Of a DNA stretch of 64,000 bases, positions 29,860 through 35,015 are shown piece after piece. Position numbers and translations under genes: made by a program. This DNA is from Porodaedalea pini (taxonomy: Eukaryota > Basidiomycota > Agaricomycetes > Hymenochaetales > Hymenochaetaceae): NCBI GenBank assembly GCA_002794775.1, contig NBAY01000126.1, forward strand, positions 1-64,000. Direction: 5' to 3'. Under the pieces are notes generated by a model. That model saw only the letters and a list, made by a program, of their open reading frames with translations. It was not told where the DNA came from and ran no database searches. Numbering within the stretch: the first letter of the stretch is position 1; every line of letters begins with the position of its first letter.

Positions 29860-29884
29860 CAGTCATTGACACCTCCTTGGGACA
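29860..29884 (+). repeat. Left TIR of the pogo-like element
   Basis: Matches the reverse complement of 34991-35015 at 22 of 25 positions and is preceded by TA. Confidence 0.85.
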
Positions 29885-30518
29885 CGTTCAGAGGTTGCCT
29901 CCTGCATGCTCTAAACACAACATTTTTTATATTTAAAAAATAGGGAATAGAACTAGATGAAAGCCGCTACACAAGCATTGAGAGTATAAATTTTCTTCTC
30001 AAATAATTAAAGAGATATGGCCCAAAGAAAATCAGTGGTTGTTTGTCACAATTATATCTCCTTGGGACACCATGTGACATTGTCACATTAATGCATACAC
30101 AGGAGTCAGTTCGACATCAAGCCTTCGTTCACACACACACCTTGCCAGCTCAAGCATACCAAAGACTCATACCTATCTTCCATCCGTCATATGCATCTTC
30201 ATTTCCACAAAAAGGAATGCACTGCCCTCTCCTCCATTTGATATAACCTTTAGATGACGACTCCCATGGTTGATCCTAGTGGCATGCAGCCCAAACCATC
30301 TGCTCGTTGATGATACAACCAATGACGATAACTCGTGCTTCACACATATGCTATCACTGTTGTTCTGGGAACTGAAGGATGTATGCATCTAGTGTGCACT
30401 GTGCACATTCCACCCCACGCCGATGGAGAAGCTCGGTCTCTTCTGTGGCAGCACCGTCCTTGTCAGATAGGCTCCTTTTGCATTATATGTGCCACGTTAT
30501 CTAACGGCGAAATAACAG

Positions 30519-32157
30519 GGGAAAGAAGCAGAGAGACACCGTACTTATCTGCCTCGCGAGCGAGGATGGCTCGATCGAAGAAGGCAAGATTGAGATGAAC
30601 AAGATCACGCGCAACAATCTGCGCGTCAAGCTCGCCGACCTTGTTCATGTCTCGCCACTGCCTGATATCCAGTACGGAAAGCGTGTTCACGTCCTTCCCT
30701 TCGACGACTCCGTCGAGGGCCTCAGTGGTAATATCTTCAAGGTTTATCTCAAGCCGTACTTCCTTGAGGTGTACCGCCCGCTGCGCGAGGGCGACACATT
30801 CAAGGTCCGCGGCGGCATGCGTGAGGTTGATTTCAAGGTTATAGAGACCGATCCTGCATTGTCGCTCAAGATACCGTCATTCACACTGGTATGGGTATCT
30901 ATTGTATAGGTGGCGATTTATAGAGCTGACCGCTTCGCGATAGAGGGTGACCCGGTGAAGCGTGAAGACGAGGAATCAAGCCTCAGCGATGTCGGCTACG
31001 ACGACTTTGGTGGTTGCCGGAAGCAGATGGCGCAGGTCCGCGAGCTCGTTGAGCTCCCTCTTCACCATTCGCAACTCTTCAAGCCCGTCGGTTTGGTATC
31101 CTCATGTACGGTCCTCCCGGTACCGGTGAGACACTCATGGCGCGTGCGGTGGCGAACGAGACCGGCGCATTCTTCTTCTTGATCGACGGCCCGGAGATCA
31201 TGAGTAAGATAGCTGGTGAATCTGAAAGCAACCTTCGTAAGGCATTCGAGGAGGCCGAGAAGAATTCACCTTGCAATCATCTTCATTGATGAAGTCGGCT
31301 CGATCGCTCCCAAGCGTGAAAAGGTGAATATTTAACGTTTTCGTCTATGCAGACTTGACATTGATTGTTTATTTCCAAAGACCAATGGCGAAGTCGAACG
31401 CCGTGTTGTCTCGCAACTCCTTACACTCATGGACGGCCTGGAGGCACGGTCGAATGTCGTGGTCATGGCCGCAACGAACCGGCCCAACACAATTGACCCT
31501 GCGCTTCGTCGCTTCGGACGTTTCGATCGCGAAGTAGACATCGGTACTTCTGATCCTACTGGGCGTCTCGAGATTCTTCGTATTCACACGAAGAACATGA
31601 AATTGGCCGACGATGTCGATCTCGAGCAGGTATATACTTGTTATTGCCATCTTCCTAACACTACATACTTAACATTGCTTCAAGATTGCCGCCGACACTC
31701 ACGGCTACGTCGGCTCTGATATCGCCGCACTCTGCTCGGAAGCCGCTATGCAGCAAATTCGCGAGAAGATGGATCTCATCGACCTCGACGAGGATACTAT
31801 CGATGCCGAGGTACTCGACGCACTCGGTGTGACAATGGAAAACTTCCGCTTCGCTCTTGGTTCGTCCAACCCGTCAGCACTCCGCGATACGGTCGTTGAG
31901 GTGCCCACCGTCAAGTGGGACGACATCGGTGGTCTCGGCAAGGTCAAGCAGGAGCTCCAGGAGACCGTGCAGTATCCCCGTCGAGCACCCGGACAAGTTC
32001 ATCAAGTACGGTATGTCACCGTCAAAGGGTGCGCTGTTCTATGGTCCACCGGGTACTGGTAAGACATTGCTGGCGAAGGCGATTGCCAAGCCAATTTCAT
32101 CTCGATCAAGGTAGGTTTCTTATTCATGACTTGCCGATGTTTGTTTACTAATAGATC
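30519..32157 (+). pseudogene. CDC48: CDC48/p97 AAA-ATPase fragment, decayed
   Basis: Covers roughly residues 65-545 of the ~815-aa protein: end of the N domain ([45 protein letters not shown]), all of D1 and the start of D2 ([23 protein letters not shown]). Introns remain at about 30890-30944 and 31630-31685, with a donor at 32112, so this is genomic and not a processed copy. At least four frameshifts exist: near 30857 (loss of ~10 bp), near 31091, an extra T near 31270, an extra C near 31980, plus a small deletion near 32090. The D1 Walker A Lys is Glu (GTGET) and the Walker B-following Asp is Gly (DEVGS). It cannot make a working ATPase. It lies wholly inside the pogo-like element. Confidence 0.92.
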
Positions 32158-32220
32158 TTTCGTTGTGCCGTTCGAATGAGTTGATCGTACCATAAATGCT
32201 AGAAAGCGGTACATGCATTG

Positions 32221-34524
32221 TTAGTCGCTGTCAGAGTTGCTCTCAGAATCTATCTCTATTTCCTCTCCCGTCTCGTCACCCGACTCATTGTCCATTGCAT
32301 CACCCGCCATATCACCCACCACCTCTTTTACCTTTGAAGTAATACCAAACCTTTTGTATACCTCTGCCTTGATTGCCGTCTTTGTTTTGTCTCTTGTTGG
32401 CTTGCTGCGACGGTCTTTTGTTGGGATGCGATTAGTTTTCCATTGTTTCTTTTCCTCCTCCCATATTGCCGCATCCTTGATATGCTTGTCTATAATGTCC
32501 TTCCACTCTTTCTCTATCTGTTTGTCTGCCTCCTTTTTCTGTTTACTACTGTCCTGCTTCCTCATCCGTGCATCAACCTTCTTCTTCTTTGCATCATCTT
32601 GTTCTTTGAGCCACTTCCGGATCTTCTCGGAGGTAAGAATCTTTGCGAGCCCGTCATCTGCAACCGCTGAATTGTCTTTTGACTTCTTTTTCTCCTTCTG
32701 ATACAGTGCGACCTGAAGCTTTGAGTTGTGAAAGCTTGCGAGAGCAAGCTGCGCATTGGCTCCTTCAACAATCCTTTCGGCAATCTGGTTATGATGGCAA
32801 GCAAGCTCCAGATTTAGTGTGAGTTCCTTCATCTTTTCTGCTAGCTCATCCTTCGACATTGCCTCTGGATTTGGTGGCAATGTGATCAGGCTCCAATCTG
32901 GTTTAGCCAGCTGTAATGGGATCCTTTCAAAGACCGGTGGTGGAATAGTCTGAGAGGAGGTGAGCTTCTCTTTTGAGACAAGGAAACTGCTTGAGTCCGA
33001 CATCGCTAATGTCCCATACATGATCCGACCACGCTTTGTTGGTGTATACAGGTCTGGATTGATCAATACATCAAGAGGTGCAGGCATAATAATACCACTG
33101 CCATGAGAACTGGCGCATGGTTCACTTTGTGACAGAGGGAGATGGTTTGATCTATCGATATCAAAGCTCGTGGGTGGTTGATGGTGATAGACTGCCATGA
33201 TGCGGCGAACAGGTGATGGCATTGCTAATGGGAATGTAACCAAAGTGGATGTCGCCTCACTTGGCTTCATCTGCTCGGCAGTTATGACAGTGCAATCAAA
33301 TGGGTAGACTCCAGTTACACGAAAGGCTGAGCAAACAGTTTGCTCGTCGAAAGCCTCTAGGTAGGCCCTGCCAAATAATTCTAAGAAGTTGTCCTTGCTA
33401 ATGCTCCGTTTATTTTGTGTTTCAAAGTCATCAATTCTGTTCCTCCAGATACGTTTTAACTTTGCAAAACAGACAACATCGAGCCCCTGGAGTGCATGAG
33501 TGCAATGCGGTGGGTAGCAAATAATGATAACATTATGAGTGATAGCATGCTCAAGGAGCTCGAGGGAGTAGTGTGATGAATGTCCGTCAAGGAGAAGAAG
33601 TCGTTTGTGACCAGCAGCTCGCTCTCGTGTGGTAGGTTCAAAATAGTCAGCGAACCATTGCAGGGTTATGCCCTTTTCTGTCCATCCATTCTTGGATATA
33701 GTGATCCTAGGCAAGATCAGCAACAGAGTTGGCGAAAAGTGGTGAGCAACTTACAGTGCATCCGCAATGTTGTTCTGAGCCCATCTATTCATCAACCTCT
33801 TGCCTTTAAAAATCACTAATGGCTGTTCCGTCTTCCCTGCTGCACTAATAGCAATGACAGCTGTCACATTCTCTCTGTTTGCACCACCTGATTTTGCCTG
33901 AGACTTCCGACCTGTTCCAGCAACAACGACATGGCTGGCATCATTAGCCATGGGAAATCCACTCTTGTCCACACCATAGATATTTTCTGGATCAATATTT
34001 GGTGCATCAACTTCCTCCAAAGCGTCAAAATAACTGCAGACAGATGTTGGATTGAGGCCAGTATCTTTTTGTGTATCCCTAGGCTTGCTTCGGTATGTTT
34101 TTAGCCTCTCGTGATGACGGTCCATAAAATTCCAGCCCCAACTCTTCCCAACAGGCTTGGCATCCTTCCCAAGACGAGCCTCCAGTATCTTGTTTGCATG
34201 TTGGCTAATTTCCTCGATTGTTAATGGACAATTCTGCTCTGCCAAAATGAGAATGAGATGGATGAGCTGCTCCTCCTCCGCTGTAGTAAGGAGCTGCTTT
34301 AGTGTATTAAAACAATGCATTGACATTCCTCCTTCTGCTAGCCTGCCCAATGTGCTCTTTGTCACTCCTGGAAATAGGTTGGCAATATCTCGTAGTCCTC
34401 GACGGCCCTTTGCTGGTTTAAGCTGCTCAAGCTTATACACTTCAAGTGCCTGAGCCAAATTGGCAGCTTTTTCAATGGCCTTCTGCTGCTTCTGTCGAGC
34501 CTGAGATATGGCATGCTTGACCAT
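32221..34524 (-). CDS. Pogo-type DDE transposase
   Basis: Two exons (34524-33755 and 33706-32221) join in frame to 751 aa with no stop. The N-terminus has a helix-turn-helix-like DNA-binding region (RRGLRDIANLFPGVTKSTLGRLAEG) and a second one of CENP-B type (TAEEEQLIHLILILAEQNCPL). The DDE/DDD catalytic core is complete: GVDKSGFPM (first Asp), LLLLDGHSSHYS (second Asp) and QGLDVVCFAKLKRIWR (third acid). The C-terminal 250 residues are Lys/Glu-rich coiled coil ending in an acidic tail (DNESGDETGEEIEIDSESNSDSD). The uninterrupted frame and matching TIRs suggest an autonomous, possibly active element. Confidence 0.93.
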
Positions 34525-34990
34525 TTAGTTTGTGCTTTAGATATAGAGGGTTTGAGAATAAATTTAGCACCCTTGGATTTGTCGAGCGACACAAAGAAAT
34601 GATTACATAAACAACTTGACCAACGTGGCAGAAATCCTCTGTCACGCTTTCAAAGCCTCCTAGACTCCTTGCTGCAACAAAACAGTTACACCAGCTTTCA
34701 AAGCTCAAAAATTAGCATGGTCACTCTCTATATGTCCTATAATATCCTGATATAATTTTTGGTGTAAAATAACTGTCTGAAATTTTAAAATTAGCAAATC
34801 TCTGAAAGAGTAGATCATAAGATAGTCAATTTTCGGCACTCAATGACCCATATTAATTTTTTCTGTGCACATGCTGTCTTCATATTATAGACATAGGTAA
34901 CAGACATTAAAGGCTACATGCAGAATTTTTTTTCAGACAGATTGCTTAAGAAATGATGGAGAAAATGCAGTGTGTCCCAAGGAGGTATAC
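34525..34990. other. Pogo element 5' region
   Basis: Non-coding AT-rich sequence between the transposase start and the right TIR. It should hold the transposase promoter and carries an extra subterminal repeat copy at 34973-34986. Confidence 0.6.
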
Positions 34991-35015
34991 TGTCCCAAGG
35001 AGGTGTTAAACACTG
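34991..35015 (-). repeat. Right TIR of the pogo-like element
   Basis: TGTCCCAAGGAGGTGTTAAA continuing to CACTG, followed by TA; inverted relative to 29860-29884. Confidence 0.85.

Follow-up and report, generated by a model that had tools for sequence, protein, structure and literature searches.

We analysed a window of 64,000 nucleotides (positions 1 to 64,000 of contig NBAY01000126.1, assembly GCA_002794775.1) from the basidiomycete Porodaedalea pini, in which a pogo/Fot-type transposon at positions 29860-35015 holds, between one pair of terminal inverted repeats (TIRs) with the dinucleotide TA on either side, both a transposase gene and a captured piece of the host gene CDC48. The best explanation of this arrangement, which we consider highly probable, is that an element bearing a transposase gene captured the CDC48 DNA, and that deletion, spread and some exchange between lineages followed. 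A sequence-only reading of the window had described outermost repeats identical at 22 of 25 positions, with flanking TA dinucleotides, around the transposase and CDC48; both features were verified, and the observation is confirmed on stronger grounds than those first claimed.

Ends, transposase and captured fragment

The left TIR (25 nt; positions 29860-29884, plus strand) agrees with the right TIR (34991-35015, minus strand) at the said 22 positions as counted by eye, the termini of the element read CAGT...ACTG, and the target-site TA dinucleotides occupy 29858-29859 and 35016-35017. In the genome searched (53.27 Mb in 201 contigs; copy counts are lower bounds), the CDC48 piece was found at 13 further places on different contigs, with 85-88% identity to the window and in every case without a transposase. 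A search for further copies with the insert had been proposed as a check; 11 of the 13 are complete (2487-2505 bp), one is without a right end (L020, contig C29) and one is without a left end (L021, contig C93). The shared ends are not a matter of chance, because all 11 complete copies have 25-nt ends identical to those of the window copy, with TA on both sides. None of the 11 ended at a TIR between 32110 and 32221, the outcome that the sequence-only reading had itself named as contrary evidence. The left arm (29860-30132), which is situated 3' of the transposase gene, is common in full to 12 short copies at 96-97%, and the right arm (34525-35015), which includes the region upstream of the transposase gene, is retained by the short copies at 83-87% and was found at 13 places besides the window (cut short in the C29 copy). 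A solitary left end of the family, only 145 nt long, lies beside a TA at C8:745311-745455 (L023, L031), and its continuation is unlike the family.

The flanks differ among the 11 complete insertions. To search for empty target sites, we joined the 80-nt flanks of each insertion across one TA and compared them with the genome. Empty TA sites, which had been proposed as a check, were found for 4 of the 11 insertions (L011, L013, L016 and L022), with 91-99% matches crossing the join; for the remaining 7, no empty site was found among the 40 of 313 candidates that were scored. When one empty site for each was read base by base, those of L011, L013 and L022 were exact at the join with a single TA, whereas the join of L016 lay in a CTAC-repeat stretch and showed a gap of 4 nt, so that this site was not counted as exact. 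Since the sister copies share ends and TA, and since the empty target sites fit, the outer TIRs delimit the mobile unit.

The 14-nt core of the TIR, ACCTCCTTGGGACA, occurs at 42 places in the genome, of which three are on the window's contig, all in the two ends of the element. Subterminal copies of the core lie within both arms: CTCCTTGGGACA, perfect over 12 nt, at 30058-30069 (plus strand), which is no element end, and a second one at 34973-34986 (minus strand). The genome-wide search with the 14-mer found no exact core between the CDC48 insert and the transposase gene, in agreement with the claim that no terminal repeat separates the two. The places C41:298233 and C47:265978 were rejected as members of the family; they match by the 14-mer alone, which we judged to be chance.

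The transposase gene (32221-34524, minus strand) runs from an ATG at 34524 to a stop codon at 32221-32223, has one GT..AG intron of 48 nt (33707-33754) and encodes 751 amino acids without an internal stop. Its description as a full pogo-like DDE transposase held: the open frame matches the Pfam domains DDE_1 (PF03184, E = 2.7 × 10−22) and HTH_Tnp_Tc5 (PF03221, E = 1.6 × 10−7), and three aspartates presumed to be catalytic (D186, D297 and D333) occur without exception in an alignment of 13 proteins, namely the window transposase and 12 homologues drawn from the best 120 of 141 found. With an open frame and its catalytic residues present, the transposase is apparently intact. The last two aspartates are separated by 35 residues (DD35D), a spacing typical of Fot/Fot-like and Passer elements; Fot elements mostly have TAA as target site, and TA is found in the clades FotC and FotD (PMC7386202). 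DDE_1 with DD35D, a CENP-B/Tc5-type helix-turn-helix, and TIRs with TA place the element in the Fot/Fot-like group of the pogo superfamily, an assignment made by domains, spacing, TIRs and target site.

The captured fragment (30285-32162, plus strand) extends from exon 2 to intron 7 of CDC48 and is 92% identical by BLAST to the native gene; it does contain introns, as had been claimed, but is slightly longer than the 1.6 kb first given. The native gene, on contig C4, has an open frame of 814 amino acids and eight introns, and the donor is still present outside the element. Because the introns were kept, DNA was copied and not a spliced transcript. The fragment and the transposase gene stand tail to tail on the plus and minus strands, and the insert lies 3' of the transposase gene at a distance of 58 nt from its stop codon, with the coding sequence untouched; without positions 30133-32162 the element would measure ~3.1 kb. 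Upstream of the fragment, positions 30118-30284 (plus strand) possibly represent the captured 5' untranslated region (UTR) and start of exon 1, strongly diverged. Their colinear match to the native 5' UTR and exon 1 was equalled by 18 of 2000 shuffles and by 3 of 1000 segments taken at random from the window; a previous test gave 7 of 300 and 27 of 1000 shuffles. A capture reaching this far is weakly supported.

As a protein, the CDC48 fragment looks dead. The exons of the window copy contain several frameshifting indels and those of the short copies a 41-nt deletion, the Walker A lysine is replaced (by E in the window copy and by R in the short copies), and the longest open reading frame (ORF; ATG, GTG or TTG start) is 104 amino acids in the window fragment and 144 in L011, the one short copy examined. 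A functional CDC48 protein made from the element was rejected on these grounds. The native protein shares 97% identity with its counterpart in Fomitiporia mediterranea, followed by the one in Phellopilus nigrolimitatus (93% over 92% of the query), both species being Hymenochaetales, and since the former match is so close the host is probably a relative of Fomitiporia.

History of the insert

Six amino-acid differences from the native CDC48 are found both in the window copy and in the majority of 10 short copies, for which L020, L021 and L022 were left out of the 13. For five of them (L45F, T49P, V93I, I222V and M284I), all 7 basidiomycete outgroup proteins carry the native residue; at the sixth, R52K, they are not uniform. 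If two changes at one codon are assumed to agree one time in six, 0.48 identical coincidences are to be expected over 448 codons (p = 1.1 × 10−5); without the one-in-six assumption, the count of all codons altered in both gives an expectation of 2.9 vs. the 6 shared (p = 0.072). The window and the short copies also have a 9-nt insertion in intron 2 in common (not polarised), the left arm is common to them up to the same base, and the window insert extends beyond the short-copy insert on both sides. Derived CDC48 changes common to the window and the short copies make a single capture the best explanation of both inserts. The short copies have also retained the sequence upstream of the ATG of the transposase gene (their right arm is aligned by BLAST from window position 34529, 5 nt upstream of the start codon), which argues that an ancestor carried a transposase gene. 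In the arms, ten short copies (L022 left out) differ mutually by ~1%, and they thus arose in a recent burst from one founder.

Elements without cargo were found among more distant relatives. A search of the genome with the transposase gave 33 matched stretches, none of which, besides the window, exceeds 54% identity. A hunt for TA-flanked TIRs at 23 loci, some of them overlapping, was positive at 7, which amount to three elements; at the other 16 loci no TIR pair was found under the criteria used, partly because the loci are short. The three related pogo elements measure 3006 bp (L024 1785-4790, C8:338784-341789), 2967 bp (L025 1682-4648, contig C30) and 2983 bp (L027 1213-4195, C8:1062712-1065694), and have perfect 22-nt TIRs, TA and no similarity to CDC48. 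The first begins with CAGACA and not CAGT, and the transposase of the third has many stops. By segment, the three transposases are 41-51% identical in amino acids to that of the window.

Taken together, these findings best fit the following history. A cut-and-paste transposon of the Fot/pogo type, ~3.1 kb long, would have gained ~1.9-2.0 kb of genomic CDC48 DNA in the interval from its left end to the stop codon of the transposase; the likeliest route is template switching as a break inside the element was repaired. This is the published model for single-copy Pack-TIRs; for multicopy Pack-TIRs, replication-fork switching followed by transposition has been proposed (PMC8277862). To judge by its ends and the sister insertions, the enlarged element would have kept its ends and transposase and remained transposable. 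In descendants, internal deletion would have removed the transposase together with the margins of the CDC48 insert but spared TIRs and right arm. These descendants would have reached at least 13 places; the transposase of the window element presumably mobilised them, because the ends are identical and that transposase is the only close one found in the assembly. Exchange between diverged lineages of the family probably occurred too, and the CDC48 piece would be a decaying passenger.

Several observations weigh against so simple an account. Neither a second full-length copy with the window transposase, such as the sequence-only reading had proposed to look for, nor a family copy without CDC48 was found in the assembly, and what preceded the capture is inferred from relatives whose amino-acid identity is 41-51%. 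Comparison with the native gene, which had been expected to give the exact junctions, settled the extent of the insert from exon 2 to intron 7, but the left junction is blurred. The 60 nt beside the transposase start differ by 39% between the window and the short copies when compared ungapped, and look homologous, by eye, only with indels. Divergence along the element is also uneven: between the window and the short copies it amounts to 2.9% for the left arm, 8.1% for the insert (5.2% outside CpG) and 13.2% for the right arm. In the right interior (34588-34888, which leaves out the poorly aligned first 60 nt) 35 of 290 positions differ, compared to 67 of 1297 in the insert outside CpG (Fisher p = 5.5 × 10−5). 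The short copies are therefore no simple deletion products of the window copy. The outermost right arm is similar again (5 of 127 different), and a comparison of divergence in the left arm and the insert gives p = 0.053 outside CpG and p = 0.0016 with CpG; the shared ends may reflect function or gene conversion, both of which fit. The founder of the short copies looks like a mosaic of lineages and not a plain deletion of the window copy, and the higher divergence of the right arm relative to the insert makes it probable that recombination mixed lineages as well.

The same unevenness suggests recombination of lineages in a rival history, in which CDC48 was initially captured by a non-autonomous element, and recombination with an autonomous sister gave the window copy a transposase again. 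We regard this as unlikely: the region upstream of the transposase ATG in the short copies points to an ancestor with a transposase, and the window insert is longer on both sides than that of any short copy. If two subfamilies with shared TIRs had each captured CDC48 independently, this would account for right arms that are 13% different and for the different boundaries of the inserts, and the excess of shared changes falls to the p = 0.072 given above once the one-in-six assumption is dropped. This explanation is nevertheless disfavoured, and we hold it to be distinctly improbable, given the five shared changes at which 7 of 7 outgroups match the native residue, the shared, unpolarised intron insertion, the position of the short insert wholly within the long one, and a left arm shared to the same base.

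Two readings of the element's structure fare worse. That two kinds of cargo lie within one TIR pair could be explained by nested insertion of a transposase-bearing element into or beside a CDC48-bearing one, but insert and transposase are not separated by any exact TIR core, and the right arm, common to the short copies, is contiguous with the region upstream of the transposase; we rejected this reading as very improbable. The sequence-only reading had also offered a shorter element ending at the motif near 30058, with an older, unrelated outer repeat. Although the motif is a perfect 12-nt copy of the TIR core, it lies inside the aligned sister copies, the left arm is complete from the outer TIR onwards in 12 short copies, the outer ends are used by 11 of 11 complete copies, and exact empty sites fit those ends for 3 of 11; this alternative is refuted and keeps next to no probability. 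Capture by a transposase-bearing element, with later deletion, spread and exchange, thus remains the best explanation.

Silencing, decay and surroundings

A captured piece of an essential gene might act as a shield, in that small RNAs directed against the element would also hit CDC48 and make silencing costly. We give this idea little credence; if true, it could account for the persistence, through the recent burst, of a fragment that has no use as protein. Perfect 21-mers shared with the native CDC48 number 420-474 in each of ten short copies, 201 in L022 and 733 in the window. The region upstream of the transposase in the short copies is oriented such that a transcript from it would be antisense to CDC48, and RNA-dependent RNA polymerases are encoded in the genome, where 14 stretches matched.

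The short copy L022 (C64:115541-118029, within the locus C64:114000-120000) has C to T changes at 49 of 250 CpG cytosines (19.6%), compared to 1.7-2.0% in CA, CC and CT contexts, with the majority of 10 other short copies as reference. Because the changes are concentrated at CpG, this suggests decay driven by methylation rather than CA-type repeat-induced point mutation (RIP). DNA methylase matches were found at 3 places in the genome.

Around the transposon, a palindromic element resembling a miniature inverted-repeat transposable element (29500-29827, 328 nt, with 86-nt arms that are 97% complementary) ends ~30 nt to its left. Copies lie at C47:249204-249531 (100%) and C1:1436739-1437065 (99%), with others on contigs C59, C22, C8 and C146 (78-81%). 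Just right of the transposon, at 35679-35848, are four copies of a tandem repeat with a spacing of 46-48 nt. An ORF of 491 amino acids lies at 27355-28830, and several overlapping shorter ORFs lie at 36101-37123, right of the element; judged by eye, both presumably encode proteins of the F-box type.

Comparison with known systems

The claim that such a capture is rare, and rarer in a copy that keeps its transposase, was partly right but overstated: captures by elements of the Tc1/Mariner group have been published, one of them fungal and with a transposase (PMC3538342, PMC8277862, PMC8903248). Transduplication by fungal TIR elements that keep a transposase, including a Tc1/Mariner case, is thus known as a kind. 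In titles and abstract openings, a search in which subscription papers mostly fell outside and which is no proof of absence, we found no report of a pogo element that captured CDC48 or of the P. pini family. What one genome presents here is a cargo form with transposase, deleted derivatives, cargo-free relatives, empty sites and the donor gene, which indicates that a pogo/Fot element can gain ~2 kb of intron-containing host DNA while the transposase is kept, and that the cargo then spreads. It is also a warning for annotation, as additional gene models resembling CDC48 in genomes of this sort may be cargo of transposons.

The closest published cases are from Pyrenophora tritici-repentis, in which a hAT element with histone H3 has a long, transposase-bearing form and a short derivative, and a Tc1/Mariner element has captured a coiled-coil ORF, both coding regions being full-length in 31 of 46 copies (Manning et al. 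2013, PMC3538342). As in P. pini, these are fungal TIR transposons with extra coding sequence between their ends, present in tens of copies, and the hAT likewise combines a long form with a shorter derivative. In contrast, the cargo of P. tritici-repentis keeps its ORFs, whereas that of P. pini is an intron-containing, frameshifted genomic fragment, in an element of the pogo/Fot type, in a basidiomycete host and with the transposase in one copy only. In Pseudocercospora fijiensis, transduplication of histone H3 also amplified a housekeeping gene in a fungal DNA transposon, with later mutation (PMC6710886). There, however, a hAT captured a transcript or retrocopy that decayed by RIP-type CA to TA changes, whereas genomic DNA was captured in P. 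pini and the decay is at CpG.

A gene fragment between TIRs, a donor elsewhere, and amplification at sites with distinct flanks, by which Pack-TIRs and transduplication are recognised, were all found here. Among 370 animal Pack-TIRs, 115 are of the Tc1/Mariner type, Pack-Tigger1 included (Tan et al. 2021, PMC8277862), and Tigger is a pogo family (PMC7386202). These are likewise Tc1/Mariner-group elements with captured genomic DNA, for which a gap-filling mechanism is described; they are, however, mostly single-copy and often near the parent gene (PMC8277862), whereas the P. pini family is multicopy, lies off the donor contig and has one copy with a transposase. Pack-Mariner elements of rice and maize are Mariner-type TIR elements with gene fragments; the survey that reports them treats Pack-TYPE elements as non-autonomous and classes transposase-matching elements apart (PMC8903248). 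In this strict plant sense, which calls for the absence of a transposase, the 13 short copies of P. pini are Pack-TYPE elements, whereas the window copy, with its transposase, is not.

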